Source: an uncultured Erysipelotrichaceae bacterium (lineage in GTDB: Bacteria; Bacillota_I; Bacilli_A; RF39; UBA660). From it: a DNA stretch of 37,639 nucleotides. The stretch covers positions 1-37,639 of the forward strand of contig CADALJ010000008.1 of NCBI GenBank assembly GCA_902788735.1. The letters are read 5' to 3'. Numbering within the stretch: the stretch's first letter is position 1; each line of letters begins with the position of its first letter. Under the pieces are notes generated by a model that was not told the origin of the DNA, ran no database searches, and saw only the letters and a program-made list of their open reading frames with translations. This document shows positions 4,727 to 23,361 of this stretch, one piece after another. The translations under genes were made by a program, and so were the position numbers.

Positions 4727-5425
4727 ATGGATAATAAAAGAATTGCATTAACTACTAATAAACTCAAAAAAGAAAAGAAGATAAAAAGGATAGTTAGAAT
4801 TGTTTTATTACTCATTTTATTATTACTAGCTATAATATATTCAGTTGTCGGTATTGTTTATAATAATAGTAATTTTAGTATAACGTTGGATAGAAACCTT
4901 TATTATGAAAAAGGATTAATTGTATATGATGATCCTGACTATAAAGTGTTTAGATCTGAACTATATGCATTATCCCCTGATACTTTCGATAACATATCAT
5001 ATAGATGGTTACCAGAAAATATACATGATTCAAGGGGTGGCTCACATAATGGTCAAAATTATTTAGCATATACCTTTTATGTAGAAAATCAAGGAAAGGA
5101 TACAGCAGACTATTATAGTGAAATAGAAATAGTAGACGTTATTAAAAATGTTGACGAAGCAGTTAGAATTCGTGTTTATAAAAATGATGTTCAAACTACA
5201 TATGCTAAGAAATCTGCAAGAAATGAGCCTGAGAAGAACACAACTCCATTTCTAGAAGATAAATTAATAGCATTAGATCATGTCGAAAATTTTAAACCTG
5301 GAGACATTGATAAATATACAGTAGTTTTGTGGTTAGAAGGGTCTGACCCAGAATGCAACGACAACATTTTAGGTGGAGAAATTAAAATTGTAATGAGTTT
5401 TAATTCTGAATATGTAGATGATTAG
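4727..5425 (+). CDS. Membrane-anchored TasA-fold-like surface protein, first gene of the fibre operon
   Basis: The protein has 232 residues: a basic cytoplasmic start, one hydrophobic helix at about 21-45, and an extracellular domain. Near the C terminus it carries VLWLEGSDPECND, which matches the WLEGQD/WVEGQD motif near the ends of the three following fibre paralogs, so it probably shares their beta-sandwich fold. It lacks the Thr-Tyr-Ala-Trp-Phe signal end of the paralogs, so it may stay anchored in the membrane, perhaps as a base or initiation subunit. AAAGGAG precedes the ATG. The next gene starts 14 nt after its stop. Family assignment rests on the shared motif only; the function is inferred from context. 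Confidence 0.55.
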   Translation: MDNKRIALTTNKLKKEKKIKRIVRIVLLLILLLLAIIYSVVGIVYNNSNFSITLDRNLYYEKGLIVYDDPDYKVFRSELYALSPDTFDNISYRWLPENIHDSRGGSHNGQNYLAYTFYVENQGKDTADYYSEIEIVDVIKNVDEAVRIRVYKNDVQTTYAKKSARNEPEKNTTPFLEDKLIALDHVENFKPGDIDKYTVVLWLEGSDPECNDNILGGEIKIVMSFNSEYVDD

Positions 5426-5439
5426 AAAGAGGAGTATGT

Positions 5440-6670
5440 ATGAGAAAAAGAAACAATAAGCATATTAAAAGAGCAAGACGAATGATTCTAGCAGTTATTT
5501 TAATGGCATTTATATTAGCTGCAGGAACATACGCATGGTTCATTGGTATGAAAACAGTTAACGTATCAAGTTTTGATGTAGAAATAGCTGCAATCGATGG
5601 ATTGTCACTTTCATTAGATGGTGTTCGTTGGTCTGATACAGTTACTATAAATAAAGAAAACTATGCATCAGTCAATGAATCAAATAATACAAATAGCTGG
5701 GGTGGAAGTGGATTATATCCAATGTCTTCAGTAGGTATTATTGATACAACTGCATCAAGAATGATATTATTTGAAAAAGGAAGTTTCACAACTACTCCTG
5801 GTGGATATAGAATTATGGCTAGCCAAGTAGCTAATACAGTAGCAGGAAATACAGAACAAGATGGATACGTAGTATTCGACTTATTCGTTAAAAACCTATC
5901 TGGTCATGAATATTACAAAGCATTAGATGTAAGAAATGAAGAAGCAATTTATTTAACACCAGATTCAAAAGTTACAGTAGCAAGTAATGGTGGTGTAGCT
6001 GGAACTGGTATTGAAAACTCAGTAAGAGTTGGATTTGCACAAATTGGTCGTGTTGAAGCGTCCTGCACAAATCTGGGAACCAAATGATAGATACCATGTA
6101 CAAAATGCAATTAACTGGTATTCAACTTCATGTTTAAAAAGAACTGGAGCTGATTTAACTCAAGCAACTTCATTTGGCGGAGCATGTAAGACATTAACAG
6201 ATGGTACTTATGTACAAACAAATGCAATTAGTGGAGTAATTGATTATACTGATCAAGTAGATGTATATGATGGAGCAGATTACAATGGTTATACAGCAAG
6301 TATTTCTGCAACACCAGCAACTGGTAAATTATATGCATACGATTATTTCACAGATCAAGAAAAATCATTAACAGGTGTTAATAGACCAACATTTATTACA
6401 TTAGCACCAAATAGTATTACAAAAGTTAGAATTTATGTATGGCTTGAAGGTCAAGACGTTGATAACTATGATTTTGCATCATTAGGAAAGAAAATATCTG
6501 TAGCATTTGGATTAACTAAGGAAAGATTCTTCGATGAAGATATCAATTATGTTAACCCAGAAGGAGCAGAATTACCAACTGACGTTCAAAGAGAAGAACA
6601 TCCAGCATATGATTATGAAGCACCAGCAAATAACAATAATAATGGTGGAGGAGAACCACAAACACCATAA
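5440..6670 (+). pseudogene. Fibre-subunit paralog 1, broken by an internal deletion and frameshift
   Basis: Two overlapping frames together make one protein closely related to the next gene. The first frame (from 5440) has a SipW-type signal segment at 12-36 ending GTYAWFIG, then runs to GRVEA. The second frame resumes at PAQIWEPND (about 6059) and ends at TAA 6668-6670 with the tail GGGEPQTP. Aligned to paralog 2, about 31 residues between GRVEA and CRQAQIWEPND, including two cysteines, are missing and the frame shifts at 6058-6062. Without rescue the product stops after 215 residues. The C-terminal frame keeps RIYVWLEGQDVDNYDF. Lack of other lesions suggests the break is recent, strain-specific or an assembly fault. 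Confidence 0.75.
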
Positions 6671-6699
6671 CAAAATGGTGAATATTAAAAAGGTTATTA

Positions 6700-6726
6700 C
6701 ACGTAAGGGAAACATCCCCTTACGTG
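6700..6726 (+). other. Intercistronic hairpin between fibre paralogs 1 and 2
   Basis: A perfect 10-bp stem (CACGTAAGGG with CCCTTACGTG, 7-nt loop) lies between the stop of paralog 1 and the AGGAGG of paralog 2. There is no T run, so it is more likely an mRNA-stability or processing element than a terminator. Confidence 0.6.
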
Positions 6727-6751
6727 ATATAAAATTAGGAGGGAAAATTTT

Positions 6752-8143
6752 ATGAAAAATAACAGACGTAGAAAGAAAATTAGAAACCTTATAATAATTT
6801 GCTTTATCTGCGCAATAATCGTTTCTGTTGGAACTTATGCATGGTTCATTGGTATGAAAACAGTTAACGTATCAAGTTTCGATGTAGAAATTGCAACTAC
6901 TGAAGGTTTGTTCTTATCAATGGATGGAGAACATTGGTCATATCAATTAGATGCCAAAAATGCAACACCTTATACAGGTAATACTAACACATGGGCACCA
7001 ACAGGTTTAATACCTATTTCATCAGTAGGAGATTTAGATGCAACAGTATCTAGATTACAACTATATGAAAAAGGAAGTTTAACTACTACAAAAGGTGGTT
7101 ATAGACTATTAGCTAGCCGTGTTCATAACTATGACAATACTGAAACTGGTAAAAATGGTACAAGTGAAAGTAATGGTTATGTTGCATTCGACTTATTTAT
7201 TAAGAACCTTTCAGGAACTGAATATTATGCAGAAAATAATATATTAAATGAAGAAGATATTTATTTAACTACAAATTCAGCAGTTACAGTAGCTACTAAT
7301 GGTGGTGTAGCTGGAACTGGTATTGAAAACTCAGTAAGAGTTGCTTTTGCACAAATCGGACGTGTTGAAGCTACAGATGGAGTTGCAAGTGTTGATAATA
7401 TTACTGGTATTACTTGTACAGATGTAGCTGCAGGAACTGGTCAAGCACAAGTTACTGGTATTTGTCGTCAAGCTCAAATCTGGGAGCCAAATGATAAAGC
7501 ACATGTACAAAATGCAATTAACTGGTACGAAACAAGTTGTAAGATAAGAAAAGAAACTGGTACAGATGTTACTTTAGCTGCTTCATATGACTCAACTGCA
7601 TGTTCAGGAGTAGCAAATAATGCTGCAAACAAAACATATGCTATAAGTAGAGTTATTAATATAGCTGATAATGTTGATATCTATGATGGAGCACAATATA
7701 ATACTTATGAAGACAATACAATTGAATATGCAACATATGATGCTGCAGTAAATAGAAATGCAGCTGCATTAGCACAAACAGACGATGCAGAAAAAGCAAC
7801 TGCTGCTGAAGCTGCTAAAACAACTGCTCGTGCAGAATATAAATTAGTTGATTTTCCTTATTTCACAGATACAATGAAAAACTTAACAAGTACTGAAAGA
7901 CCAACATTCATGAAATTAGCACCAAACAGTATTACTAAAGTAAGAGTTTATATTTGGATTGAAGGACAAGATGTTGATAACTATGATTTTGCATCATTAG
8001 GAAAGAAAATTTCTATTAACTTCGGATTTACTAAGGAAAGATATACTGAAGATGATATCGATTATACAGGACCAAGTACTGATATCACTCCAGTTGAAAA
8101 TAATAATCAACAACAAGGTGGAGGAGAACCACAAACACCATAA
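6752..8143 (+). CDS. Major fibre-subunit-like secreted protein, paralog 2 (TasA/camelysin-like, SipW-type signal)
   Basis: This 463-residue protein has a signal segment at about 10-32 ending GTYAWFIG, typical of substrates of SipW-type signal peptidases, then a long beta-rich exported part. It shares with paralogs 1 and 3 a GTGIENSVRV block, a cysteine pair before QAQIWEPND, and WIEGQD at 402-407. An Ala-rich insert at about 331-368 is absent from paralog 1. The tail is NNNQQQGGGEPQTP; no LPXTG sorting motif is present, so sortase anchoring is unlikely. A strong AGGAGG precedes ATG 6752 and hairpins flank the gene, as is common for highly expressed subunit genes. The homology to TasA/CalY is by signal form and context rather than clear sequence identity. 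The fibre role is inferred. Confidence 0.65.
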   Translation: MKNNRRRKKIRNLIIICFICAIIVSVGTYAWFIGMKTVNVSSFDVEIATTEGLFLSMDGEHWSYQLDAKNATPYTGNTNTWAPTGLIPISSVGDLDATVSRLQLYEKGSLTTTKGGYRLLASRVHNYDNTETGKNGTSESNGYVAFDLFIKNLSGTEYYAENNILNEEDIYLTTNSAVTVATNGGVAGTGIENSVRVAFAQIGRVEATDGVASVDNITGITCTDVAAGTGQAQVTGICRQAQIWEPNDKAHVQNAINWYETSCKIRKETGTDVTLAASYDSTACSGVANNAANKTYAISRVINIADNVDIYDGAQYNTYEDNTIEYATYDAAVNRNAAALAQTDDAEKATAAEAAKTTARAEYKLVDFPYFTDTMKNLTSTERPTFMKLAPNSITKVRVYIWIEGQDVDNYDFASLGKKISINFGFTKERYTEDDIDYTGPSTDITPVENNNQQQGGGEPQTP

Positions 8144-8164
8144 TATAAAGGTGATTAAAAATAA

Positions 8165-8186
8165 TATACTAGTCGACACTAGTATA
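8165..8186 (+). other. Intercistronic hairpin after paralog 2
   Basis: A 9-bp perfect inverted repeat (TATACTAGT / ACTAGTATA, CGAC loop) lies just after paralog 2. It has no T run. Confidence 0.5.
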
Positions 8187-8195
8187 ATGGCATAG

Positions 8196-8234
8196 ATGAA
8201 GAGTAATGTTATTATACTTACTCTTCATTTCTTT
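8196..8234 (+). terminator. Possible attenuating hairpin before paralog 3
   Basis: An 11-bp stem (ATGAAGAGTAA / TTACTCTTCAT) is followed by a weak T-rich stretch that runs into the ribosome site of paralog 3. It could lower transcription of downstream genes relative to paralog 2. Confidence 0.5.
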
Positions 8235-8253
8235 ATGAAGGAGGTGAAGAGAT

Positions 8254-9288
8254 ATAAATTTCTATAAAAAACATAAAAAAATAGTAATAATAGTTTTAAT
8301 AATATTTTTAGGAGTCTTATTTATCTTTTCATCATATGCATGGTTCTCAACAGCGTTAAATGTTAAAATCAAACAATTTAATATGGTTGTTGCTAAAAAT
8401 GGAGGACTATCAATCTCTTTTGATGCAGTAAATTATGATAGTGCTGTTGAAATATCAAGAGATATATTAATAAATGAAGTAACTGAAACTTATCCAAATC
8501 ATATTAATCAATGGGCATTAAATGGATTAACTCCTATATCTTCAAACGGTATATCTGAAGATAATAGTTATTTCTTTGATATATTTGCTACATCAGGCGT
8601 TAAATACAAGAATCGTAGACATGAAAATGGTTTTATATATACAACAAAAGTGAAAGATACAAAGCCAAGATCATATAATAGTTATATTGCTTTTGATGTA
8701 TTCTTTAAAAATGTTACAGGTTCACCTGTAGCAGATAATTTATATTTTGATGAAGAAACAGCCATTACTATGACTTCTGATGGTAATGATGAAATGAGAG
8801 GATTAGTAAATTCATTACGAATAGGAATTGTTAAAGTAGGAAGTGTTCCACATAATACAGATCCAACAATTATTCAAAATCTACAATGCCAAGGAAAGTG
8901 TGAGGCAATTATATTTGAACCAAACAGTGAAAAACATACAGATCTTTCTATAGAAAGAGCTATGAAATATGACATTAACCTAATTAATGGAAAAAGGTTC
9001 CCTACATATGCCATGATAAAAGAAGGGGGCCCTATATACGTAAAAGATAATATATCAGGATCACCTAATTTAGATCTAAATTATTTTTCACTACAAAATA
9101 CAATTCATGAAGAAGATTTTGATAGGCCATTATTTGAAATACCTGATGGTATTACAAAAGCAAGAATCTATCTATGGGTTGAAGGACAAGATATTGATAG
9201 TTTGGAAACAGATTCTGAAGGAGCAGAGTTATATGTAGATATCAATTTTTCAAAAGATACTACAGGTTATAATACATTTAATGAATAA
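8254..9288 (+). CDS. Fibre-subunit paralog 3, with apparent AUA start codon
   Basis: The first ATG in this frame is 8383, but the frame is open back to TGA 8245-8247 and encodes a full SipW-type signal (basic NFYKKHKK, a hydrophobic run, then SSYAWF) before it. AAGGAGGTGA at 8238-8247 lies 7-9 nt before ATA 8254-8256, and no ATG, GTG or TTG lies between. I therefore place the start at the ATA, giving about 344 residues. Either AUA is used at low efficiency, as AUU is in infC, or an ATG has been lost by mutation or base-call error. The mature part matches the paralogs: cysteine pair followed by AIIFEPN, and WVEGQD near the end. It lacks the Gln/Gly-rich tail. Probably a minor subunit. Confidence 0.6.
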   Translation: MNFYKKHKKIVIIVLIIFLGVLFIFSSYAWFSTALNVKIKQFNMVVAKNGGLSISFDAVNYDSAVEISRDILINEVTETYPNHINQWALNGLTPISSNGISEDNSYFFDIFATSGVKYKNRRHENGFIYTTKVKDTKPRSYNSYIAFDVFFKNVTGSPVADNLYFDEETAITMTSDGNDEMRGLVNSLRIGIVKVGSVPHNTDPTIIQNLQCQGKCEAIIFEPNSEKHTDLSIERAMKYDINLINGKRFPTYAMIKEGGPIYVKDNISGSPNLDLNYFSLQNTIHEEDFDRPLFEIPDGITKARIYLWVEGQDIDSLETDSEGAELYVDINFSKDTTGYNTFNE

Positions 9289-9302: not shown

Positions 9303-9446
9303 ATGGTAAATGAAAAAGTTGATTTTGATTTATCACAGTTAACTTTAGAAGATTTAATTGAAGTTTATAGTAAAATAGAAGAATTCATTGGATTTTTAGA
9401 TAGTAGTAAGATTATTACGGAAGAAAAAGGTGATACTGATGAATAA
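9303..9446 (+). CDS. Small acidic protein in the fibre operon
   Basis: ATG 9303 is preceded by GGGGTG, the frame runs 47 codons to TAA 9444-9446, and the stop overlaps the next start by 8 nt, a sign of translational coupling. The peptide begins MVNEKVDFDLSQL and looks helical and acidic, resembling a small regulator or docking subunit. No known family is recognised. Its tight spacing on both sides supports that it is a real gene. Confidence 0.6.
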   Translation: MVNEKVDFDLSQLTLEDLIEVYSKIEEFIGFLDSSKIITEEKGDTDE

Positions 9447-11063: not shown

Positions 11064-11099
11064 TGATATGATAGGGAAAGTAGAAGGTAGGTGATAATT

Positions 11100-14000
11100 A
11101 TGCGAAATAGAAAACTAGTAATTTCTGTAGTTTTTTCTTCTTATTTAGTACTAGTTTTAATATTTTCAGTAGTAATACCTACATTCTCAAGATTTAAAAG
11201 TGGAATAGATAATCAAGAATGGGATGGATTAATAGCCAGTGGTTTTAAAAGTGGTACTGGTACAGAACAAGATCCATTCATAATATCTACTCCAAATGAA
11301 TTTGCTTACTTTGCTAATAGTATGAATAATAATAATTATGAAAATCAGTATATCAAACTAACTAAAGATATTGTAATAAATAAAGGCGTATTTAAAAATA
11401 ATACATATATTTATGATGATGTTACATATTACTTAGGTAATAATAACAAATACTATGAAGAAGATACTTTACAAACAGAAGCAGGTAGTATAAAAATACT
11501 TCCAATCATAGAAGGATTCAAAGGACATTTCGATGGTAATTTTCACACTATTTATGGATTATATGAAAAAGATAATAATAAGAATGCATTATTTGTAGAT
11601 TTTAATGGAGAATTAAAAAATTTATATCTTGATAATACATATATAACTGGTGGATATATAACTGCAGGAGTAGTAGCTGATGCTAATAATGCTACTATAA
11701 AAAATGTATTATTTAATGGTACTGTTATAGGTAATACTAATACTAAACAAGCAACAAAAACTGTTCAAGTAAATGATTTTAATGTAGTAAATCAAACTAC
11801 TAAAACTATTGATATACCTATGATATCTAATATATCAACAAATACTTTAACAGGTACTTGTAGTGGTACAGATACATTTACATTAAATAATATAGAATAT
11901 AATTGTACTAACTTTGAAATAGAAACACCAAATGTATTTGAAATAAAAGTATCAAGTGAAGCATCTTTTGAAAATGTTGAATACACTTTAACATACACTG
12001 AAAATAAAACAGCTGGAATAGTAGCTCTTTCTAAAGACAGTAACTTAGAAGGATTAGTAAATAAAGGAAATATTACTGGAATTTATACTTCAGGTATTAT
12101 AGGTACTATAATAAACTCCAATATTAAAAATAGCTATAATATGGGAACAATAACTGGAGAAAAATCTTCAGGTATCGTAGATACAATAATGTATTCTAAT
12201 AGTTTATTAGAAAATGTATATAATAATGGAATTCTACAAGCAAATACTAAATATGGGTTAGCATCTAATGTATATAATTCCACAATTACTGTGGAAAAAG
12301 TATTTAATACGCAAGATGTATATATGCTTAATAATACAAATTCCACAATTACTGTGGAAAATAGTTATAATGTAAGAAACTATACTACTAGTGATTTTAG
12401 ATTATTGAACTATCAATCAATAAACCCTTTATATCCTAAGTATACTAATGATCAAAACATATCAAATGGAAATATATGGATAGGAGAAGAAATACCTATA
12501 CTATACTTTGATGATATTAAAAATAGAACTGTACAAATAAAAATAGATAATACAATATGGGATACTTATAATGAAAATATTAGTGACGTTAGATATAACA
12601 ATGAAGTAGAACTTTTAATTACCACAACTGATATGTATAAACCAATTAAGAATGTTTGGTATTATGCATCAAATGAAGTAATAGATTATGAAGATTTAGA
12701 TGATGTTTCATGGACAGAATATAATGGTATTTTTAAATTAAATAATAATGTTTATATCGTTTATGTTAAATATGAAGATTATAATGATAATGTCTATTAT
12801 ATTAATACCGATAAATTAATAATAGGCACAGTAAGTTTAAATGTTAGTATAAGAAGTGAAACTACATCATGGAGTGCTTATCATGACCCAAATAATAAAT
12901 TTTTAAATAAACCAGCTACATATGAAATATTAAATAATGGAGCATCTTTAAGTGTATCAAGAATAGATTATCTAATAACAAATCAAAAAATGACTAATGA
13001 AGAATTAGAAGAAGCACAATGGACTAGATATACAACAGCTATATCACCACAAGGTGATTCATATATAATCTATGTTAAAATTACTAATGCCGATTCATCG
13101 GTAACATATATAAATACAGATAAAATGATTAATATGTCATATCAAATAAATGATTTAAAATCAGGTAATAACCAAACATTCTCAAGTAATATGACTTATA
13201 AATCATCATTTAATTTTAATGTATCATTAACACATAAAGTAAATATAACAAACTTTAAAAGATACATTAAAGTAGATAAAAAGTTACCAAACAACACTTT
13301 AATTACTTTAAAGGATAACAATGGAGAATATTTTGAATATAAGGTAACTACTCATGATTATGATGGTAATTTAAATGCATATTTATATCCATTATCTAGA
13401 TTTAAAAAAGTTGGTAAAATAACATTTGAAGAATACTTTGATGATGATGATTATAATAATTCTAATGAATTATTTAATGTATTTATTGATTTTAAAAATA
13501 TTTCAGAAACAACAAACAACTATACAATAAGCTTTATTGCTAAAAATAATGAAATAGTAAATACAGCAAATAATCAAGAAATTACAATTAATTTAGTTAA
13601 TGTAGATACTAATACATTATCAGTAACTAGTAATTATACAAATACAATAGATTATGGAATAGAATCTACTTATACAATTCCAATAACTACTAGTTTATCT
13701 GATACAATTCAAAATGGTAATACTATTAAAAATACTGATTTTGAAAATTTATATGAAGGACTATTCATAGAAGTATATGATACAAATAATAATATAGTAT
13801 CTAGAGATGTATTTAAAAATTTAAGATTAATGTACAATAACACAATATATGTATTTGATAATAATAATAGAGTTAATATAAATTTAGGAAATAATCATAA
13901 TCAAAATATAAATATTCAAGTATTAACTTATAATGATATGACAAATATAAATGATACATATACTATGAAAATTAAAGGATATCTATCAGTAGATGGAATA

Positions 14001-14414
14001 AATAAGAAATATCAAAGCTCTAATACTATATCTATACCATTAAGATTTAAAAGTAGTACAGAACTAGATTATAGTTTTGATGTTAATCTATCCCAACCAA
14101 TTATTAATAAAGGCAATAGTTTTAGTTTTGATGTAGATTATGATGGAGACTTAGAAGATCCAATATTAAAAGTATCTTTATATAAGAAAAAAAGATTAAC
14201 AGCATATAATCAAGAATATGAATTAGTTGATTTAAAGAACTATGTATCAAATAAGTTAACTACTTCAAATAATTATATCTATGAGATTAATTTAGATGAT
14301 ATTGTATTTAATATAAAAAATAATATAGAAAGTAATGGTTATAAATTCGTATTCACTCTTTACGATGGTAATAATAAAGTAAACGAAGTTGCCATAAAGA
14401 CCATAATAAGATAG
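11100..14414 (+). CDS. Large surface adhesin-like protein with GLUG-type and Ig-like repeats
   Basis: The 1104-residue protein begins with one hydrophobic segment (about 6-30) acting as signal or anchor. It continues with a GTGTEQDPFIISTPNEFAYF module, common at the start of beta-helical surface proteins. Residues about 150-430 carry repeated short motifs of GLUG/beta-helix type. Two related modules follow that end in YVKYEDYNDNVYYINTDKLI and YVKITNADSSVTYINTDKMI. The rest is beta-rich and ends without LPXTG or a C-terminal helix. I chose ATG 11100 over GTG 11091 because GGTAGGTG sits correctly for the ATG. A 23-nt exact repeat inside the gene encodes NSTITVE twice. It heads unit 2, so a fibre-tip or adhesin role is likely but inferred. 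Confidence 0.65.
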   Translation: MRNRKLVISVVFSSYLVLVLIFSVVIPTFSRFKSGIDNQEWDGLIASGFKSGTGTEQDPFIISTPNEFAYFANSMNNNNYENQYIKLTKDIVINKGVFKNNTYIYDDVTYYLGNNNKYYEEDTLQTEAGSIKILPIIEGFKGHFDGNFHTIYGLYEKDNNKNALFVDFNGELKNLYLDNTYITGGYITAGVVADANNATIKNVLFNGTVIGNTNTKQATKTVQVNDFNVVNQTTKTIDIPMISNISTNTLTGTCSGTDTFTLNNIEYNCTNFEIETPNVFEIKVSSEASFENVEYTLTYTENKTAGIVALSKDSNLEGLVNKGNITGIYTSGIIGTIINSNIKNSYNMGTITGEKSSGIVDTIMYSNSLLENVYNNGILQANTKYGLASNVYNSTITVEKVFNTQDVYMLNNTNSTITVENSYNVRNYTTSDFRLLNYQSINPLYPKYTNDQNISNGNIWIGEEIPILYFDDIKNRTVQIKIDNTIWDTYNENISDVRYNNEVELLITTTDMYKPIKNVWYYASNEVIDYEDLDDVSWTEYNGIFKLNNNVYIVYVKYEDYNDNVYYINTDKLIIGTVSLNVSIRSETTSWSAYHDPNNKFLNKPATYEILNNGASLSVSRIDYLITNQKMTNEELEEAQWTRYTTAISPQGDSYIIYVKITNADSSVTYINTDKMINMSYQINDLKSGNNQTFSSNMTYKSSFNFNVSLTHKVNITNFKRYIKVDKKLPNNTLITLKDNNGEYFEYKVTTHDYDGNLNAYLYPLSRFKKVGKITFEEYFDDDDYNNSNELFNVFIDFKNISETTNNYTISFIAKNNEIVNTANNQEITINLVNVDTNTLSVTSNYTNTIDYGIESTYTIPITTSLSDTIQNGNTIKNTDFENLYEGLFIEVYDTNNNIVSRDVFKNLRLMYNNTIYVFDNNNRVNINLGNNHNQNINIQVLTYNDMTNINDTYTMKIKGYLSVDGINKKYQSSNTISIPLRFKSSTELDYSFDVNLSQPIINKGNSFSFDVDYDGDLEDPILKVSLYKKKRLTAYNQEYELVDLKNYVSNKLTTSNNYIYEINLDDIVFNIKNNIESNGYKFVFTLYDGNNKVNEVAIKTIIR

Positions 14415-14422
14415 GTGATAAT

Positions 14423-14962
14423 ATGAAGAAAATAGTAATAATAGCCATATTAGTAGTATGTATACTCATAGGAGTAGGAATAACATATTCAATGTATATA
14501 AGTGAAGCTAATACCAATACAAGTATTGCCTTGGCATCATTTGTTTTTGATGCTGATAGAAAAGAGAATATTAATATACCAATCTCTAATATTAATCCTG
14601 GAGATGACTTGGAATATGCCTTTTCAGTAAGTAATAATTCACAGAATAAAAGAAGTGATGTTACAATCAAATACAATATTATTATAAAAACAATGCATTT
14701 TATACCATTAGATATAGAATTATATGATGGAGAAGATAATTTAGTTTTAACATGTGATGAAACTTCTCAAAGAAATTCATTAAATGAAATAGAATGTCAA
14801 ACTTATGATATTACTATGTCATATATAGAAAATATAAAAGATGATTATTATCTTAAAGTAACATTTCCAGAAGAATATAATACAATAGAATACTCATCAT
14901 TAGTAGATTATATAAACTTAGAAATTAATAGTAGACAAAAAATAGATGAGGAGGATATATGA
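14423..14962 (+). CDS. TasA/camelysin-like secreted protein
   Basis: This 179-residue protein has a hydrophobic signal at about 4-21 ending GITYSMYISEA, then FVFDADRKENI, ISNINPGDDLEYAFSVSN and a SDVTIKYNI segment. This order (signal, FxFD, NPGD, FxVSN) is that of small TasA/CalY-type fibre proteins exported and trimmed by SipW. The stop TGA at 14960-14962 overlaps the next ATG as ATGA, so the two genes are probably translated in a coupled way. It lies in unit 2 behind the large adhesin-like protein. Likely a minor fibre or adaptor subunit. Confidence 0.65.
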   Translation: MKKIVIIAILVVCILIGVGITYSMYISEANTNTSIALASFVFDADRKENINIPISNINPGDDLEYAFSVSNNSQNKRSDVTIKYNIIIKTMHFIPLDIELYDGEDNLVLTCDETSQRNSLNEIECQTYDITMSYIENIKDDYYLKVTFPEEYNTIEYSSLVDYINLEINSRQKIDEEDI

Positions 14963-15711
14963 GAAAAAAGATTATAATTATAGTTTCAATAGTAATTCTT
15001 ATACTACTCATTGGATATGGTTTTACAAAAGCCTTATTTACTTCTAATTCTATAAGAGATTACTATTTAAATTCAAAAGGATTCTACTTTGAAACAGATT
15101 ACGATACAAGTACTAATGTATATAACTTTTGGGATGGTAGTATGATAGAGTATAATGTATCAAATATAAAAGATGATAAATATACAATAGATGACATCAA
15201 TTATGAAGTTAGATGTATAGTGCCAAATGGTGTAGTTTGTAAAATAAATAATAAAACTACTAAATATGAATCAACACTTAAAGGTGGAAAAGAAAGTACA
15301 GAAAAAATATATTTAGATGTAGAAACAAACAATAAAGATGTAGAAGTACAAGTAGTAACAAAAAGTCTTTCACCATATACAAAGACAATTAGAAACACTG
15401 TGTTATTACATAAAGATGAAACAATTGGAAATTTTGATTATGAATTAGTAAATTATAGTAATTATAGCTTACTCAATATAAGTAATTATTATAATCAAAA
15501 TAAATGTTTTAATGTAAAATGGAATGAAAAAAATTTGTTAGTATCAGTAGAAGATGTTACAGTTGTTGCCTCAGATAGTAAAGGATATGTTAATGAATTT
15601 ACAAAAGATGTTCCAAAAAATGATACAGTAAGTATTAAATTTTACAATCAAGGAAATACAACATATGATAAAACAATATTTCAAATAAGTGAATGCTCAC
15701 TTGAAAGTTAA
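14959..15711 (+). CDS. Second TasA-like secreted protein of unit 2
   Basis: The 250-residue protein has an N-terminal hydrophobic helix (about 4-23) followed by TKALFTSNS, then YYLNSKGFYFETDY and a WDGSMIEYNVSN stretch. The signal form and the NVSN-type beta motif resemble the preceding gene, though the two are not closely similar. GAGGAGG lies just before the start, inside the end of the previous gene. Four cysteines in the mature part could form disulphides. The fibre role is inferred from neighbours and signal form. Confidence 0.6.
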   Translation: MRKKIIIIVSIVILILLIGYGFTKALFTSNSIRDYYLNSKGFYFETDYDTSTNVYNFWDGSMIEYNVSNIKDDKYTIDDINYEVRCIVPNGVVCKINNKTTKYESTLKGGKESTEKIYLDVETNNKDVEVQVVTKSLSPYTKTIRNTVLLHKDETIGNFDYELVNYSNYSLLNISNYYNQNKCFNVKWNEKNLLVSVEDVTVVASDSKGYVNEFTKDVPKNDTVSIKFYNQGNTTYDKTIFQISECSLES

Positions 15712-15748: not shown

Positions 15749-16279
15749 ATGAAGGTTATAGAAAAAATTAAAAAAGTTTTATTAGGAATAGTAATAGTAG
15801 TATTTTCTTGCTTTGCAATATTTATGACAATACTATTATTGAATTATAATGATTATGGAGTAACAGAATTTGGTGATACATCACTTATAATTATTAAAAG
15901 AGAAATATCATCAGAAAAATATAAAAGAGGAGATTTAGTACTTGTTCAAAAAGTAGCATTTGATGCTATTAAAGAAGGCGATGAACTATTTGCATATAGC
16001 GTTAATAGTAAACAACAAGTAAATGTTGAAGTTGGTATAGTAAAAGACTTATATCCAAAAGATAAAACAATTGCATATAAAAATGGTGCAGGTTTTTCAG
16101 AAGATTATATAGTAGGTAAAGCAACTAAAACATATAAAGGTATAGGTACATACCTATCATTTATTGAATCTAAATGGGGATTTTTATTTGTAGTATTAAT
16201 TCCATGTTTTATAATTTTTATCTATGAAGTATATGCTTTAATAGTAGAAATCAGATATGGTGAAGACGAAGAAAAATAA
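15749..16279 (+). CDS. Signal-peptidase-like membrane protein lacking the catalytic motifs
   Basis: The 176-residue protein has an N-terminal helix (about 9-31), a small extracellular domain and a C-terminal helix (about 145-168) ending in a charged tail, as in archaeal/SipW-type signal peptidase I. It keeps the KRGDLVLVQK turn, but the usual SGSMEP with the nucleophilic Ser is replaced by FGDTSLIII and the ITH histidine motif is not found. It is therefore probably inactive and may bind substrates or partner the active peptidases encoded in unit 3. ATG 15749 was chosen because ATAGGTGG lies at 15737-15744; the frame extends upstream to 15689 within the previous gene. Confidence 0.55.
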   Translation: MKVIEKIKKVLLGIVIVVFSCFAIFMTILLLNYNDYGVTEFGDTSLIIIKREISSEKYKRGDLVLVQKVAFDAIKEGDELFAYSVNSKQQVNVEVGIVKDLYPKDKTIAYKNGAGFSEDYIVGKATKTYKGIGTYLSFIESKWGFLFVVLIPCFIIFIYEVYALIVEIRYGEDEEK

Positions 16280-16401: not shown

Positions 16402-18354
16402 ATGAATAATAAAGTATTTAAAAAAATATGTAATATTTTCTTGGATATTTTAATTGGAGTATTCGGTGTGATATTACTAATTACAATATACAATGATATA
16501 CAAGTAAAGGTATTAAACAAGAGTTATGCCGATTTTTTTGGTTATTCTACATTTGAAGTACAAACAGGTTCAATGAGACCTACAATAAATATTAATGATT
16601 TAATTATTGTAAAAAAAGAAGATTCACCTAAAATAAAAGATATAATTACATACAAAAAAGGTAAAGAATTTATTACACATCGTGTAGTTGAAGCATATAA
16701 AGAAACATATGTTACTAGAGGAGATGCAAACAACACTAAAGATGAAGCAATAAAAAAAGATCAAATAGTTGGAAAAGTAATTAAAGTAATTCCTAACTTT
16801 GGAGCATTTAGAAAAACCCTACTTAATCCAATAGTACTAATAACTTTAATCGTTAGTATTTATATAATTAGTAGAATGTTTAGTAATAAAGAATCAATCT
16901 TTACAAAACTATTAAAAAAGAAAAAAGAAAAAGTAGAAGAAGAAAAACCAGTAGCAGTTCCTATAACTGATTTTGTTATTAATGATAAAGATGAAGATAA
17001 CTTAGTAAGAGCATCAATTGATGAAGAAGATGAAATATTAGAAGAAAAAGAAGAACCAAAACTTTTAGATGAAGATGCTATAGAAGAATTAAAACAAACT
17101 ATAGAAGAAGAACCTGATGAAGAAAAAACAATATTCTTTAGAACAATATCAGTTGATAGTAGTGATATTAATCCAGTAGTTCCTGTTCCAAGACTTATTG
17201 AAGAAGGAGAGGAAGAACCAATTGTTATAGATGAAGAGATTAAAGAAGAAGATGAAGAAGTAAGACTTAAAAAACTAAAGAAAAAACATAAGAAGTTTAA
17301 TAGTATAATTGAAAAAGCAATATCTATTAAAGAAGAAGAATTAAATGAAATAATTAATATCTTTGATGATCCTAAATTAAAATCAAATGAAGCGACTATT
17401 AAAGAAAACTTCCTAAAAATATATATGGAAGGAAAATACTATAATTATGGTAATGAAAATAATTCTAAAAATACATGTTCAAAATTAGAAGAAGTATTAA
17501 CAGAAGAAACAGCTAAAATGATAAAACAATATAAAGGTAATGATGTTAAGTTTGATACTAAAGTATTAAAATATAAAGCATTATTTATTGTATTAGCTAA
17601 TATAGAGTATGCTAACTCTTCATATGAAGATATTGATACTAAAATAGCAGTATATAAAAAGAAAATATCAAAATACTTAGAATATGAAGATAAAGAATTA
17701 AACAATAAAATAAAAGAAATAATTAATATTCAAAAAATATATAAAAAGATATTTAATGATACAGTAAGTATTGTAGATACTAATACATTCACATTAAATT
17801 ATAATCAATTAACTACAAAGAAAAATATTTATGGATTAGTATTAGATCATAATATTACATTTAGTAAAGTATATAGTAACTATATTATTTCTAAAACATA
17901 TGATGAAGGAGTAGTTGCTGAAGATAAAGTATTAGTAATATTAAATATATTACTTAGTAAGATTGCTAAAGATATGATAGATGGTAATTTTAAAAATAAA
18001 TATTTATTATATCTACCAGCATCAATCTATGAAAAACAAAATAAATTAAATAATATATTAAAACTATTGAATAATGAATTTGTTAAAGAAAGCGTATTAA
18101 TACTAGTTAAAAGTAGTGTAATAGTTAACCAAAAGCAAGTATTTAAGGATATCAAAAAAGAAGGCTATCAAATAGCAATTGTTTATGATAACATAGCAAT
18201 AAAAGAAAAAGATAGTTCAATACTAAGTATAGCAACATATTTGTTTATTGATAAAAAAGTAGCAAAAGAAGTAAAATTTAATTCAGTTGATGATAAAGCA
18301 ATTGTATTAGAAAACATTTTAGCTAAAGTTGATATACCAGGAGGTGAAGAATAA
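16402..18354 (+). CDS. SipW-like signal peptidase fused to a large cytoplasmic domain
   Basis: Of 650 residues, the first 160 form a complete SipW/archaeal-type signal peptidase: helix at about 12-32, TGSMRPT with Ser57, FITHRVV with His93, TRGDANNTKDE with a likely Asp114, and a second helix at about 141-160. Then comes a charged Glu/Lys linker (170-300) and a 350-residue domain that must be cytoplasmic. Its C-terminal part (LLYLPASIYEK, VLILVKSSV, KKEGYQIAIVYDN, YLFIDKKV) follows the spacing of EAL phosphodiesterase blocks but without the catalytic acids, so a degenerate EAL-like fold is possible. SipW proteins are normally under 200 residues, so the extension is unusual. The stop overlaps the next ATG by one base, indicating coupling with the AAA+ gene. 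Confidence 0.7.
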   Translation: MNNKVFKKICNIFLDILIGVFGVILLITIYNDIQVKVLNKSYADFFGYSTFEVQTGSMRPTININDLIIVKKEDSPKIKDIITYKKGKEFITHRVVEAYKETYVTRGDANNTKDEAIKKDQIVGKVIKVIPNFGAFRKTLLNPIVLITLIVSIYIISRMFSNKESIFTKLLKKKKEKVEEEKPVAVPITDFVINDKDEDNLVRASIDEEDEILEEKEEPKLLDEDAIEELKQTIEEEPDEEKTIFFRTISVDSSDINPVVPVPRLIEEGEEEPIVIDEEIKEEDEEVRLKKLKKKHKKFNSIIEKAISIKEEELNEIINIFDDPKLKSNEATIKENFLKIYMEGKYYNYGNENNSKNTCSKLEEVLTEETAKMIKQYKGNDVKFDTKVLKYKALFIVLANIEYANSSYEDIDTKIAVYKKKISKYLEYEDKELNNKIKEIINIQKIYKKIFNDTVSIVDTNTFTLNYNQLTTKKNIYGLVLDHNITFSKVYSNYIISKTYDEGVVAEDKVLVILNILLSKIAKDMIDGNFKNKYLLYLPASIYEKQNKLNNILKLLNNEFVKESVLILVKSSVIVNQKQVFKDIKKEGYQIAIVYDNIAIKEKDSSILSIATYLFIDKKVAKEVKFNSVDDKAIVLENILAKVDIPGGEE

Positions 18355-19877
18355 TGAATACATTTTTTAGATTTTTCTATGAATTTGTCTCAATATTTTT
18401 CGAAGGTATAGCTGAAATATTTAAAGGAATAGGAAAAGGCTTTGGAAAAATGTTTGGATTCAATGAATATTCAAAAGTAGTAGATTCCTATAAAGATCAC
18501 TTTACTGGTGGAGATTGGGTATTTGTTGTTTTATCAATAATACTTGTAGTAGCACTTGTTGGTTTAATAATATTTTTAATAATTATGTTTATTAAAAAAA
18601 TGATTAGAAGAGCATCTACTAATGTTAGTAAAGATGAACTTTTAGAAGAAGTAGCTAACTTAAATGATCAAGTAGTTAAATTAATGAAAGAAAAAGAAGA
18701 ATTAATGGCTATGAAAGTATCTCAACTTGGATTAAAACCTGGAGAAGAATCAGCTGATGAAAATAATAAAGAAAAAGAAGAAGAAGTAGGAGAAACTGGA
18801 ATAAGATTCCCTAAATTAACAATGATAGATGAACAATATGCAAAATATACTCCTAAAAAATATGAAAACAATTTTACACTTCCAGGATTAATTGATGACT
18901 TTAGATGCTTTGCAGCTTCTAAACTACATCTATATTATGACCCAGTACTTTTAAGACCATTTATAGCCGGACTTGCTTGTGGTAAACTAATTATCCTACA
19001 AGGTATATCTGGAACAGGTAAAACTTCCCTTGCTTATGCTTGGGGTAAATTTGTAAAAAAAGATTCATGTGTATCTTCAGTAGAACCATCATGGAGAGAT
19101 AAATCAGACTTCCTTGGATACTTTAATGAATTTAGTAAAAAATTTAATGAAACTAAAGCACTAGGAGAAATATATGAAACTGGATATGATGATGATGTAC
19201 ACACAATCATTCTAGATGAAATGAACTTAGCTCGTGTTGAGTACTATTTCGCAGATATCTTATCAATTCTAGAAATGCCAAATACAGATGAATGGTTAGT
19301 AGATATAGTTCCATCTGCTTGGCCTAATGATCCTAAAAAAATTATTAATGGTAAGTTAAAATTACCACCAAACCTATGGTATATAGGTACAATCAATAAC
19401 GATGAATCTACATTCATGGTTACAGATAAAGTATATGACCGTGCAATGCCAATAGATATTAATACTAAAGTAGATCCATTTAAATGTAGAGAACAAGAAG
19501 CAATTGATATTAATTCAAGTTATTTATATACAATGTTTAATGAAGCAGTTCAAAAATATCCTGTTTCAGAAAAAGGTTTAGAACAAGTAAAAGAAATGGA
19601 TGATTATATAATTAATCACTTTAGAATAGCCTTCGGTAACCGTATTATGAAACAATTAAACATATTTGTTCCAGTATATGTAGCTTGTGGAGGAAAAGAA
19701 GTAGAAGCTATAGATTACTTCATAGCTAAAAAGATATTAAGAAAATTTGATGCACTAAGTGTAACATTCATAAGAGATGAATTAGATCCTTTTATAAGTT
19801 ATTTAAATAAAAAATATGGTAAAGGAACTATGAAAGAATGTATTTATTACATAGAAAATCTTAAAAAGAATATATAG
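18354..19877 (+). CDS. Membrane-tethered McrB-like AAA+ ATPase
   Basis: The 507-residue protein has an amphipathic start, one transmembrane helix at about 54-82, a coiled-coil linker (92-122) and an acidic stretch, then an AAA+ module. Walker A is GISGTGKT (217-224), Walker B is IILDEMNLARVEYYFADIL (285-303) with the extra NLARVE segment typical of the McrB/MoxR-related branch, sensor 1 lies at GTINND (345-350), and Arg363 in VYDRAMP is a candidate arginine finger. McrB is normally soluble and partners the nuclease McrC in restriction of modified DNA. Here no DNA-binding N-terminal domain is visible, and the gene lies between signal peptidases, so a role in moving or remodelling surface proteins is more likely. 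AGGAGGTGA precedes the ATG. Confidence 0.75.
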   Translation: MNTFFRFFYEFVSIFFEGIAEIFKGIGKGFGKMFGFNEYSKVVDSYKDHFTGGDWVFVVLSIILVVALVGLIIFLIIMFIKKMIRRASTNVSKDELLEEVANLNDQVVKLMKEKEELMAMKVSQLGLKPGEESADENNKEKEEEVGETGIRFPKLTMIDEQYAKYTPKKYENNFTLPGLIDDFRCFAASKLHLYYDPVLLRPFIAGLACGKLIILQGISGTGKTSLAYAWGKFVKKDSCVSSVEPSWRDKSDFLGYFNEFSKKFNETKALGEIYETGYDDDVHTIILDEMNLARVEYYFADILSILEMPNTDEWLVDIVPSAWPNDPKKIINGKLKLPPNLWYIGTINNDESTFMVTDKVYDRAMPIDINTKVDPFKCREQEAIDINSSYLYTMFNEAVQKYPVSEKGLEQVKEMDDYIINHFRIAFGNRIMKQLNIFVPVYVACGGKEVEAIDYFIAKKILRKFDALSVTFIRDELDPFISYLNKKYGKGTMKECIYYIENLKKNI

Positions 19878-19889
19878 GAGGGGAAATAA

Positions 19890-21011
19890 ATGGGTAAGTT
19901 TTATGATAATATCGATCAAGAACTTATTGAAAAACGTGATTCTTTTCTTAAAAAGATTGAATCCGATATGCATTATACCTTAAATCGTAAAAGTGATACC
20001 CTATCATTTGATTGGCTTGATGAAATAGAAAAAGCATGCCCATTTATTGATAATATAGTAAGGCATCCAAAAGTAACATTAATAAAAGATGAAATGGTAG
20101 TAGATCCCGCTAGAGCTAAAAAAATAACTGTAGATAGTGTTAAAGATTTAGCTAAACACTCTGATTATATAGATAATATTGATGAAAATGATGAAGTTCA
20201 ACTATCAAAAATATTAGATATTAGAAGTGAAGAAACATATAACATTTATGAAAATAGATTTTTATATACACTGTTAAAAGATCTAGATACATTTTTATAC
20301 AATAAAGAAAAAGAACTTGAAGATTTAGATTTAGCAGATGATAAGGTATTAGAGTATTCTTCATCAACAATAAGTAATGATGAAAAAATAGATATAGAAC
20401 TTAGAGTAGCCGCAACTAAAGATACTAATAATAATGAAAATAGTTTAAAATCTCTAATAGATAAAGAAAGAGATAGGATAAAAAGAGTAAAAGAATTTGT
20501 TACTAGTTGGATGAGAAGTGAATTAGTTAAGTCATTAGATCGTATACATACACCACTAATTAATCCACCAGTAAAACCAACAAACGTAATCTTAAAAAAT
20601 CCTAACTTCCAAGTAGCAGTAAAACTATGGGAATACATAAGAAACTATGGAAGAAATGATGGTTTAATCAAAAAAGAAATGGAAAGTGAAGGTAATCAAG
20701 CATTAATTGGTTACTTAGATGATGCTTTCTTAACTTCGTATTTTGTATTAGACTCTATTTCAAAAAGAAAAAAAGAAGAAAAAGAGAAAATACTTAAGTA
20801 TGCAATTATATTACTTTCAGAAGAAGTTTATAGAACAATGACACTACTACAAGCAAATAACATTGATATAACAGAAGATGAATTATTAAGTGCCCTATCT
20901 AAACTAGTACAAAAAGAAAGTAGTAATAGATTGGTTGGTATAGAAGATATTAAAAAGAAATTTCAATCAGAAATAGATGAGTATTTAGAAAGGACAAGAA
21001 AAAACTTGTAG
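19890..21011 (+). CDS. DUF2357/McrC-like partner of the AAA+ ATPase, without nuclease domain
   Basis: The 373-residue soluble protein carries EETYNIYENRFLYTLL at about 114-129 and PVKPTNVILKNPNFQVAVKLW at 227-247. These resemble the conserved blocks of DUF2357 (PF09823), a domain found next to McrB-like ATPases and often followed by a PD-(D/E)XK nuclease. Here the protein ends with helical sequence soon after and shows no such nuclease motif. In McrBC the N-terminal part of McrC plugs into the McrB ring and stimulates hydrolysis, so this protein may do the same for the upstream ATPase. It starts 12 nt after that gene with AGGAGGGG. Family assignment is from motif memory and should be tested by profile search. 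Confidence 0.6.
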   Translation: MGKFYDNIDQELIEKRDSFLKKIESDMHYTLNRKSDTLSFDWLDEIEKACPFIDNIVRHPKVTLIKDEMVVDPARAKKITVDSVKDLAKHSDYIDNIDENDEVQLSKILDIRSEETYNIYENRFLYTLLKDLDTFLYNKEKELEDLDLADDKVLEYSSSTISNDEKIDIELRVAATKDTNNNENSLKSLIDKERDRIKRVKEFVTSWMRSELVKSLDRIHTPLINPPVKPTNVILKNPNFQVAVKLWEYIRNYGRNDGLIKKEMESEGNQALIGYLDDAFLTSYFVLDSISKRKKEEKEKILKYAIILLSEEVYRTMTLLQANNIDITEDELLSALSKLVQKESSNRLVGIEDIKKKFQSEIDEYLERTRKNL

Positions 21012-21019
21012 GTAGTATT

Positions 21020-21568
21020 ATGAAAAAAATTATTTTAAACATATTAAAGTATTTCTTTATCACAATCTTTGTATTATTTATTTTAATGGTATGTTTACAA
21101 AGATTTAGTAATAATAGAATATCAATATTCAACTTTAGATTATTCACAGTTATATCTGGCAGTATGGAGCCTAAATATAAAATAGGAGATGTATTAGTAG
21201 CAGTAGAAACAGATCCAAAAGATATTAAAGTAGGAGATGCAATTAGTTACTTAGGAACTAGAGGTAGTTTTAAAGATAAAGTTATTACCCATGAAGTAAT
21301 AAAAATAGAACAAGATAAACAAGGAAAAAGATATTTCCATTCAAAAGGATTAGCTAATGCTATAGAAGATCCAATAGTAGAAGAATCACAATTATATGGT
21401 GTAGTAAAATATAAAGTAAAAACGCTATCACTTATTTATAAAGTAGTAGGTACACCAATTGGATTTATAATCTTTGTAGTAGTACCTATACTATATACAA
21501 TAGGTTCAGAAATGCTAACATCTTTATTGGAAAAAGAGGAAAAAAGAAGAAATAAAGCAGAACAATAG
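21020..21568 (+). CDS. SipW-like signal peptidase I
   Basis: The 182-residue protein has the standard layout of archaeal/ER-type signal peptidase I: helix at about 8-27, ISGSMEPKY with Ser48, GDVLVAVE, VITHEVI with His91, FHSKGLANAIED with a likely Asp117, then a C-terminal helix at about 145-168. The use of His in place of Lys marks the SipW rather than the SipS type. In Bacillus subtilis, SipW trims TasA and TapA. It starts 8 nt after the DUF2357 gene and precedes a secreted TasA-like gene, so these proteins are its likely substrates. Confidence 0.8.
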   Translation: MKKIILNILKYFFITIFVLFILMVCLQRFSNNRISIFNFRLFTVISGSMEPKYKIGDVLVAVETDPKDIKVGDAISYLGTRGSFKDKVITHEVIKIEQDKQGKRYFHSKGLANAIEDPIVEESQLYGVVKYKVKTLSLIYKVVGTPIGFIIFVVVPILYTIGSEMLTSLLEKEEKRRNKAEQ

Positions 21569-21582
21569 AGAGGGTGATATTC

Positions 21583-22767
21583 ATGCTTTCTAGGAAAAAG
21601 AAGGTATACTTAAAAATAAATATCGTCTCGATTCTATTTGCTGTTGTCTCACTTATATCAGTAACACTAGCATGGTTTGCTTATAGTGGACTAGCAGCTG
21701 CTAGAACAGAAGTTGATGTAAAAGCATGGTATATAGAATTTGAAAAAAATAATCAATCAGTATCTAATAATATTGTTATATCCCTAGATGATATATATCC
21801 AGGTATGGATCCTAAGACAGAAGTAATTAATATAAAAAACTTAGGAGATACAGAAGCTAAATTAAAATATAAAATTAGTAAAGCTCGCATATTAGATTCA
21901 AATGATGATTATTATGAAATGAATAACAATACTACTAGTGATTATATAGAAGATGTTATATCTCATAATTATCCGTTTCATATAGATATAGCTTTAGATA
22001 AGTTGTATATAGATGCTAAAGAACAAGCAGTTTTTAAAGTAAATGTAACGTGGCCTCTAGACTCTGGAAATGATGCTTTAGATAGCCTATGGGGACGAAA
22101 AGCATATCAATATGACCAAGCACAAGAAGAATTAGAAACAAATGAAAAAGCCCCTTCTATAGAGGTTACAATCAATGTAACAGCAGAACAAGCTATAGAT
22201 GATTTAGATAGTGTAGATATAAATTATTTATTAGGTAAAAAAATATATTATAATCCAGTAAATGATACAGTATGTACTAGTCAAACAGGAAATTGCTTAG
22301 AAACATATGTTATAGATACATTTAATAAAGTAGAAGATACAACTGTTAATCTATTACCAACAACAGATTTAGGTGATGGAACATTTCAAGAGTATCAAAA
22401 TATAAATCCTAATTGGACTACAAATTATAGATTATTAAGTAGTAATGATCTATTAAAAATACTATCATTGGATATAGAAAATTCAAAAATAAAAATTAAT
22501 GGTATATCAGATAGAGTAATTGGTAAAATAATAGATAATAATAGGGCTAATAATATTATAAATAATATAATAAGTAATAATGGATATATTGAGTATAGTA
22601 GTTTTACATATCTACAATCAGTAAAATGCATATGGACAAATACTGAATATAATAGTAACTTAGCTTTTGCTTTAGATAGGACAGAACTATATGGGGAAAA
22701 TAAAAATACTGAGTGTCGAATGATCCCAGTATTAACAGTTCAAAAAAATAAATTAGCAGTTGAATAA
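21583..22767 (+). CDS. Secreted TasA-like protein at the end of unit 3
   Basis: The 394-residue protein has a signal helix (about 13-31) ending SVTLAWFAYSGLA, the SipW-type form, and then EVDVKAWYIEFE, DIYPGMDPKTEVINIKN and a beta-rich domain up to about residue 210. A second domain from about 215 carries four cysteines and ends VLTVQKNKLAVE. ATG 21583 is chosen over GTG 21574 because AGAGAGGGTG is placed for the ATG. It follows the SipW gene by 14 nt, the same pairing as sipW-tasA in Bacillus. The last part is not recognised; it resembles the variable, surface-exposed region of such proteins. Confidence 0.6.
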   Translation: MLSRKKKVYLKINIVSILFAVVSLISVTLAWFAYSGLAAARTEVDVKAWYIEFEKNNQSVSNNIVISLDDIYPGMDPKTEVINIKNLGDTEAKLKYKISKARILDSNDDYYEMNNNTTSDYIEDVISHNYPFHIDIALDKLYIDAKEQAVFKVNVTWPLDSGNDALDSLWGRKAYQYDQAQEELETNEKAPSIEVTINVTAEQAIDDLDSVDINYLLGKKIYYNPVNDTVCTSQTGNCLETYVIDTFNKVEDTTVNLLPTTDLGDGTFQEYQNINPNWTTNYRLLSSNDLLKILSLDIENSKIKINGISDRVIGKIIDNNRANNIINNIISNNGYIEYSSFTYLQSVKCIWTNTEYNSNLAFALDRTELYGENKNTECRMIPVLTVQKNKLAVE

Positions 22768-22785: not shown

Positions 22786-23361
22786 TTAATCAATTTTTTG
22801 TTCAAATGATAAATTAGTAGTAATAGTTATTTCTTCATTGGCATTAACAAATGAAGTATCATCTTCATTGCTCATTTCACTATTACTATCATCAACATCA
22901 TACCATTCAAAGTATATTCTTATATTGATAGTTTCTAAATCTTCGTCATAATCAAATGATTCATCTATTTGACCATCTTCTATTTCAATTTCTTCTCCAT
23001 CGTTAATAGAATATCCACTAATCCTTAAATCAGCCATATCCTCGTTATCTAATGTAATATGCATATCAAATGAAGTTTCAACATTAGAAACATCTATTTC
23101 AATGTCATAATAACCTAAACTAGAAGGTGCAAGTTTACCTGAAGCAACATTATCATTTTCCACAATAGTAGGTGTAATATCAATAGATTCAACATTACCA
23201 CTAGTAATATCTTCATTGTTAATTAATATTTGCCACTTAGCGAAAGTTAAGGCAACATCCCCATTAGCATCTGCAACATATCTAGAATAAGTAGTACTTA
23301 TAATAGAAAGTGAAAATGCTAAAGCAACAAAAACAATTAGTATTTTAACTCTTTTTTTCAT
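22786..23361 (-). CDS. TasA/camelysin-like secreted protein, monocistronic
   Basis: The 191-residue protein has a signal helix (about 5-22) ending ISTTYSRYVADA, then TFAKWQILINNEDIT, an NVASGKLAPSSLGYYDIEID stretch and a C-terminal TTNLSFEQK. These are typical of small TasA/camelysin-type proteins. It is transcribed opposite to the rest of the locus and has its own ribosome site (AAAGGAG, read on the minus strand at 23371-23377). Its very acidic mature part (many Asp/Glu at 120-175) differs from the other subunits. Separate expression suggests a distinct role or regulation, for instance a subunit made under other conditions. Confidence 0.65.
   Translation of the reverse strand: MKKRVKILIVFVALAFSLSIISTTYSRYVADANGDVALTFAKWQILINNEDITSGNVESIDITPTIVENDNVASGKLAPSSLGYYDIEIDVSNVETSFDMHITLDNEDMADLRISGYSINDGEEIEIEDGQIDESFDYDEDLETINIRIYFEWYDVDDSNSEMSNEDDTSFVNANEEITITTNLSFEQKID

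Follow-up and report, generated by a model that had tools for sequence, protein, structure and literature searches.

Gene Content and Organization of the Locus

The window, which is the whole stretch of DNA analyzed here (37,639 nucleotides), belongs to a genome of 1.02 Mb (88% complete); its named relatives are MAGs assigned to Bacilli and Mollicutes. On its forward strand, a gene encoding a membrane-anchored McrB-type AAA protein of 507 aa (18354..19877) and a gene encoding an McrC-type DUF2357 partner of 373 aa (19890..21011) were located between two genes for SipW-type signal peptidases (16402..18354 and 21020..21568). The end of the first peptidase gene overlapped the start of the AAA gene by 1 base, and the gaps downstream were 12 bases (AAA to DUF2357), 8 bases (DUF2357 to the second peptidase), and 5 bases (second peptidase to the exported-protein gene at 21574). 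An earlier note on this DNA had described the pair as lying between two SipW-like peptidase genes, with overlapping or very close starts; its coordinates, motifs, and order were borne out, and both flanking peptidases scored above the TIGR02228 cut-off.

The forward strand upstream of the pair encoded a large exported surface-type protein of 1107 aa (11091..14414, motif TFSRF), an exported protein resembling camelysin/TasA (14423..14962, signal shape TYSMY), an exported membrane-tethered protein (14959..15711) whose position in the operon is conserved in 29 loci, and a SipW-like membrane protein (15749..16279). Further upstream, a cluster (4727..9288, forward strand) encoded exported proteins that belong to a single family (signal shape TYAWF) and are candidate peptidase substrates. 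Downstream of the pair, the product of 21574..22767 (forward strand) carried the signal shape TLAWF, and its place is conserved in relatives, while an exported protein with the signal shape TYSRY was encoded on the reverse strand (22786..23361) and is conserved beside the operon in relatives. The SipW-type signal shape, namely, a hydrophobic stretch followed by T[YFL][SA]x[FYM], was found in six genes of the cluster. The 14423 product scored 20.8 bits against Peptidase_M73 (cut-off 22.5), the 21574 product had no family match, and the only N-terminus to reach TIGR04088 scored 10 bits (cut-off 19). In related loci, two proteins matched the Peptidase_M73/SipW-cognate signal criterion at E 0.001 or better (best 3e-6). 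The gene that follows the second peptidase gene had been called TasA-like; it does encode an exported protein with a SipW-type signal shape, but the likeness to TasA did not reach the family cut-offs.

Within the TYAWF cluster, one exported-protein gene (5440-6670) was split into two overlapping frames relative to its neighbor at 6752-8143, a split explained either by a deletion or frameshift or by the collapse of two paralogs during assembly. The frame at 8383-9288 extended upstream without ATG, GTG, or TTG to a hydrophobic SSYAWF signal located after a good ribosome site, and an ATA codon near 8253 may be where translation truly begins. A 530-aa protein encoded at 9430-11022, which is conserved upstream of the operon in close relatives, could not be assigned to any family, nor was a membrane stretch noted in it. 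At 33995-36794, roughly 11 kb farther downstream than the operon, inspection of the translations by eye suggested an FtsE/FtsX-like pair together with a coiled-coil, M23-peptidase-like gene.

The McrB-Type AAA Protein

The 18354 product contained a single strong TM stretch (residues ~54-80) followed directly by KKMIRR, a charged linker (residues ~92-125) that by eye resembles a coiled coil, and an AAA domain from residue ~190. Its Walker A motif is GISGTGKT, its Walker B motif is ILDEMN followed by NLARVEYYF, and the sensor GTINNDES includes an NxD-type motif (N348-x-D350). The alignment of AAA relatives indicated that Walker A, Walker B, the NLARVE region, the GTxN-D sensor, and an FGNR block are conserved, and N-x-D-[DE]-S-T was detected by a simple pattern in 87 of 92 relatives. 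Pfam barely detected the window protein and its relatives, and single-sequence PDB searches with the AAA protein and its partner returned nothing useful; only profiles and models were informative. A PDB search with a profile of 20 AAA relatives recovered exactly three sequences, all of which were E. coli McrB (E 3.7e-6 to 9.1e-6, over the AAA domain). The AAA+ motifs with an McrB-type NLARVE insertion that had been read from the DNA are thus present, and McrB was the sole PDB identity by profile.

A strong hydrophobic stretch N-terminal to Walker A was found in all 92 AAA relatives. The membrane helix and linker occupy the place of a DNA-binding domain, none of which was detected in this protein by Pfam, in agreement with the replacement that the earlier note proposed. 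Pfam searches of the N-terminal parts of 20 members yielded weak and mixed matches, including one to FtsL (E 0.006), and family searches found no protease domain in the AAA protein or the DUF2357 partner. Because the positive residues come after the helix, the ATPase ring is predicted to be cytosolic.

The McrC-Type DUF2357 Partner

PF09823 (DUF2357) matched the 19890 product at E 1e-8 and was also matched by all 25 partner orthologs. The AlphaFold model of the partner was of good quality at residues 40-140 and 190-250 but became poor near the C-terminus, with low confidence at residues 256-373. When this model was compared using VIA, four McrC chains ranked first (6ut5_G, Z 8.3, rmsd 4.8 over 140 residues; 6ut6_G, 6ut7_G, and 6hz4_M, Z 7.7), and the later rows were unrelated. 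Foldseek's own ranking included no McrC among the matches listed, whereas VIA on the same candidates gave McrC. Partner residues 33-258 constitute the part aligned to McrC, and on E. coli McrC the alignment ends at residue 180; the best match of the model is the non-nuclease half of McrC. A Z near 8 is middling on its own, yet it agrees with the Pfam match, and both point to an McrC-type fold. The DUF2357-like blocks noted earlier were accordingly recovered by family search, in the orthologs, and by structural alignment. The comparison of both proteins with McrB and McrC, which had been suggested as a check, gave only McrB for the AAA profile and McrC through VIA for the partner model.

After residue 176, the partner model consisted of helices only and contained no beta strand, so no PD-(D/E)XK core was seen; family searches also gave no match to such a nuclease, although the C-terminus of the model is of low confidence. 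A hidden nuclease was rejected on these grounds of sequence and model, and, in agreement with the earlier note, the partner has no recognizable PD-(D/E)XK nuclease. The C-terminal third of the protein is helical.

SipW-Type Peptidases and a Degenerate EAL-Like Domain

The 16402 product (E 1e-17) and the 21020 product (182 aa, E 7e-21) both exceeded the TIGR02228 cut-off. The former retained the catalytic serine (TGSM) and histidine (THR), and both residues are conserved in the family alignment of the latter. The 15749 product matched the SipW model only weakly (E 0.0015), and the catalytic serine and histidine are absent from every aligned ortholog, thus indicating that it is probably dead.

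In the 16402 product, the signal peptidase (residues 1-160) is followed by an acidic linker, a cytosolic helical bundle, and an EAL-like domain (residues ~459-642; 17776..18327, forward strand). Structure models were built on alignments ten deep, and the domain after the linker was modeled with a pLDDT of 84 and a pTM of 0.83. Its second half adopts the EAL fold, as all 50 VIA rows were EAL domains (best match, Z 13.6, rmsd 3.4 over 179 residues). The catalytic motifs of EAL phosphodiesterases (EAL, NxS, E, and DDFGxG) were missing in all ten aligned members, and by these motifs the domain is catalytically dead. In related genomes, the same domain was encoded by a gene of its own, immediately upstream of the AAA gene, and the AAA proteins of loci with the peptidase-EAL fusion formed one group (support 100/100). 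The EAL-like profile matched 15 genomes, every one of which carried the AAA gene.

Distribution and Conserved Linkage

AAA orthologs were present in 39 of 99 related genomes. DUF2357 was found in 38 of these 39 genomes and in none of the 60 genomes without the AAA gene, and the only genome that breaks this pattern (G087) falls in a diverged AAA branch. At the level of the wider class, an AAA relative at E 1e-20 or better was present in 135 of 395 genomes, and a phylum-level search gave matches in the same class only. A SipW-type gene was located within 6 kb in 70 of the 85 loci examined (38 of 51 outside the family of the window) and was absent nearby in 15; these loci were taken from the top of the match list, mostly one per genus and not at random, and some (L036 and L088) stem from a single genome that bears two names. 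In ten genomes, SipW-type genes were found within 6 kb of 9 of 16 DUF2357 loci, compared with 0.41 expected from random placement, a figure usable only as a contrast since the genomes were chosen for carrying the AAA gene and related loci were treated as independent. Each of the nine loci contained two or three SipW-type genes and the remaining seven contained none, thus indicating two kinds of locus. Chance co-location of the pair with SipW-type genes was rejected on the basis of the locus survey and genome co-occurrence, and the gene order with SipW-type and exported-protein genes was conserved across many genera. A survey of this kind had been proposed as a test of the association, and the co-occurrence with SipW-type genes that it revealed is strong. 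Of the two outcomes that the earlier note would have taken as a refutation, a nuclease in the partner and a lack of such co-occurrence, neither was observed.

Among 115 neighbor genes of ten SipW-type loci from other Bacilli families, the commonest Pfam families were EAL (11) and GGDEF (11), followed by Peptidase_S26 (8). Restriction, methylase, HEPN, or other nuclease families were not among the 25 commonest of the 76 neighbor Pfam families in these ten loci. In three genomes, 9 of 17 EAL matches were no more than 10 kb away from an AAA gene belonging to the group (0.43 expected). Five loci of one branch were grouped as SipW-less (L112, L115, L117, L125, and L139), and all five harbored giant surface-type proteins (1838-2055 aa) upstream; the one scanned, from L115, contained eight cadherin-like stretches. 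A GGDEF-EAL protein was encoded directly before the AAA gene, above the cut-offs in L112, L115, and L125 and below them in L139, and the corresponding gene in L117 had no Pfam match. The only GGDEF match in the genome of the window was to a protein whose motif reads DGNEF, and a Pfam-family search of this genome detected no EAL or PilZ match. An identity of its GGDEF protein with GdpP was rejected; by eye, the translation looks like solute-binding/TM/GGDEF.

Relationship to Known Systems

A group named CoCoPALM is described in one paragraph of the main text of Bell et al. (eLife, 2024; PMC11090510), with an NxD McrB-like domain, an FtsB-like N-terminus with a TM helix and coiled coil, and linkage to the signal-peptidase family. 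In that paper, an NxD sensor followed by E or D distinguishes a single branch of the McrB-like GTPases, which includes the CoCoNuTs (PMC11090510). The category is therefore not new, and the window pair belongs to CoCoPALM by its NxD motif, N-terminal membrane helix and linker, DUF2357 partner, and adjoining signal-peptidase genes. On the other hand, the main text of that paper (PMC11090510) does not mention EAL domains, GGDEF, di-GMP, TasA, or camelysin. The fusion to a dead EAL domain, the EAL/GGDEF neighbors, the giant surface proteins of SipW-less branches, and the twin AAA genes treated below are likewise absent from its main text. No later paper on CoCoPALM was found in a literature with few subscription journals, where the group is named and otherwise undescribed. 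The EAL link of the group appears to be new, and the operon structure makes the role of CoCoPALM directly testable.

The pair shares with E. coli McrBC the AAA domain of McrB and the DUF2357 half of McrC. It differs in that no DNA-binding domain was found and the nuclease is missing, in its membrane anchor and surface-gene context, and in its sensor (NxD here, NxxD in E. coli); by these defining parts, it is not a type IV restriction system. CoCoNuTs have the same NxD McrB-like branch and an McrC homolog that often lacks a nuclease, whereas the pair studied here has a membrane helix and exported-protein neighbors. As in the SipW/TasA fiber systems of Bacillus, SipW-type peptidases and small exported proteins with the SipW signal shape occur in one operon, although the exported proteins here fall below the TasA and camelysin cut-offs, and we know of no McrBC-type pair in the Bacillus system. 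The degenerate EAL receptors FimX, LapD, and YdiV similarly combine an EAL fold without catalytic motifs with a tie to surface structures; in one clade, the domain described here is joined to a signal peptidase, and c-di-GMP is a putative ligand.

Proposed Role and Alternative Explanations

Judged from its context, the AAA/DUF2357 pair is probably a membrane NTPase machine dedicated to a SipW-processed surface fiber. This reading draws on the McrB and McrC identities, the inseparability of the pair, its linkage to SipW, the conserved exported neighbors, and the membrane stretch common to all relatives. It is also based on the EAL-like domain, which is either fused to a SipW-type peptidase or placed directly before the AAA gene, on the SipW-less branches that adjoin giant surface-type proteins, and on the lack of restriction, methylase, or HEPN families among the commonest neighbors. 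The AAA subunits would be anchored by the N-terminal helix and form a putative hexamer, with the ATPase ring facing the cytosol, and the DUF2357 protein would switch the ring on, as McrC does for McrB. With the nuclease gone, the helical C-terminus of the partner could be free to contact something else. The ring would work with the SipW-type peptidases, presumably by direct contact, and the dead EAL-like domain on one of them could serve as a cytosolic adaptor between ring and peptidase. NTP hydrolysis may then be coupled to the delivery, processing, or assembly of the surrounding exported fiber-type proteins. Weighing against this reading, the fiber nature of the neighbors is below the family cut-offs, and 15 of the 85 loci have no SipW-type gene nearby. 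To our knowledge, the known SipW/TasA systems, e.g., that of B. subtilis, also require no such NTPase. The earlier suggestion that an McrBC-type pair is reused at the membrane for surface proteins therefore stands in part: the pair is membrane-anchored, nuclease-less, and tied to SipW, but its category had already been named and the TasA likeness is below the cut-offs. Its role as a motor for export, folding, or fiber assembly is inferred.

The strongest rival, which we regard as rather unlikely, is a purely regulatory role, in which the pair and the EAL-like domain switch a SipW-type peptidase or its membrane placement without moving any substrate. FimX and LapD are known examples of degenerate EAL proteins with a regulatory function, and the fusion of an EAL-like domain to the peptidase, together with the prevalence of EAL and GGDEF proteins beside the loci of other families, would suit such a switch. 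However, the SipW-less loci keep the pair beside giant surface-type proteins, and the peptidase therefore cannot be its only client. Less likely than regulation, and improbable in our judgment, is that the pair retains a defense function of the CoCoNuT kind, with membrane damage or a neighbor gene as the effector and an incidental location among surface genes. The AAA protein does match the PADLOC candidate-defense model PDC-M26A (E 9e-37), and CoCoNuTs fall within the same NxD branch (PMC11090510). Nevertheless, the partner is nuclease-less, the other PADLOC results for the eight operon proteins scanned were negative, and the order with surface genes is maintained in many genera. Nuclease-less CoCoNuTs always have a linked nuclease according to the main text of PMC11090510, and Pfam and PADLOC scans of the window operon revealed neither HEPN nor another nuclease. 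A membrane-anchored AAA architecture adjoining exported proteins is also consistent with a membrane chaperone or quality-control unfoldase, which would retrieve misfolded or stalled exported proteins rather than build fibers. Such a function is very improbable, as no protease domain was seen in the AAA protein or its partner, and we know of no DUF2357 partner in systems of this type.

Beyond the dedicated fiber machine, we tentatively put forward a broader view, in which a restriction-type McrBC engine may have been converted into a membrane machine that assembles surface fibers and giant adhesins, controlled by an EAL (c-di-GMP-type) adaptor that is fused to the peptidase in one clade. If the proposed role at the cell surface is right, an immune engine has been domesticated for building the cell surface, the SipW-processed fibers of Gram-positive-type bacteria have an energy source, and EAL-type domains are tied to such fibers. 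We know of no SipW-processed fiber for which an energy source has been described.

Seven loci (L120, L128, L132, L135, L144, L142, and L145) formed a twin-AAA branch with the order AAA-DUF2357-AAA. In the first five, ~1.1-1.2 kb spanning the ATPase domain was 98.8-100% identical in DNA between the twin genes, and the identity was 79% in L142 and 75% in L145, whereas the membrane N-termini differed between the twins. Near-identical ATPase parts with differing anchors look like the result of gene conversion that keeps these parts alike, as would be expected of a ring with two kinds of anchor. The neighbors of this branch included proteins with transglutaminase, AgI/II-type, and WxL-binding domains. 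A separate, diverged AAA branch comprised L053, L119, L137, L141, and L146, in which the DUF2357 gene was not detected by profile, and in L146 the AAA gene is immediately preceded by a gene with a type IV pilin-like N-methylation motif.
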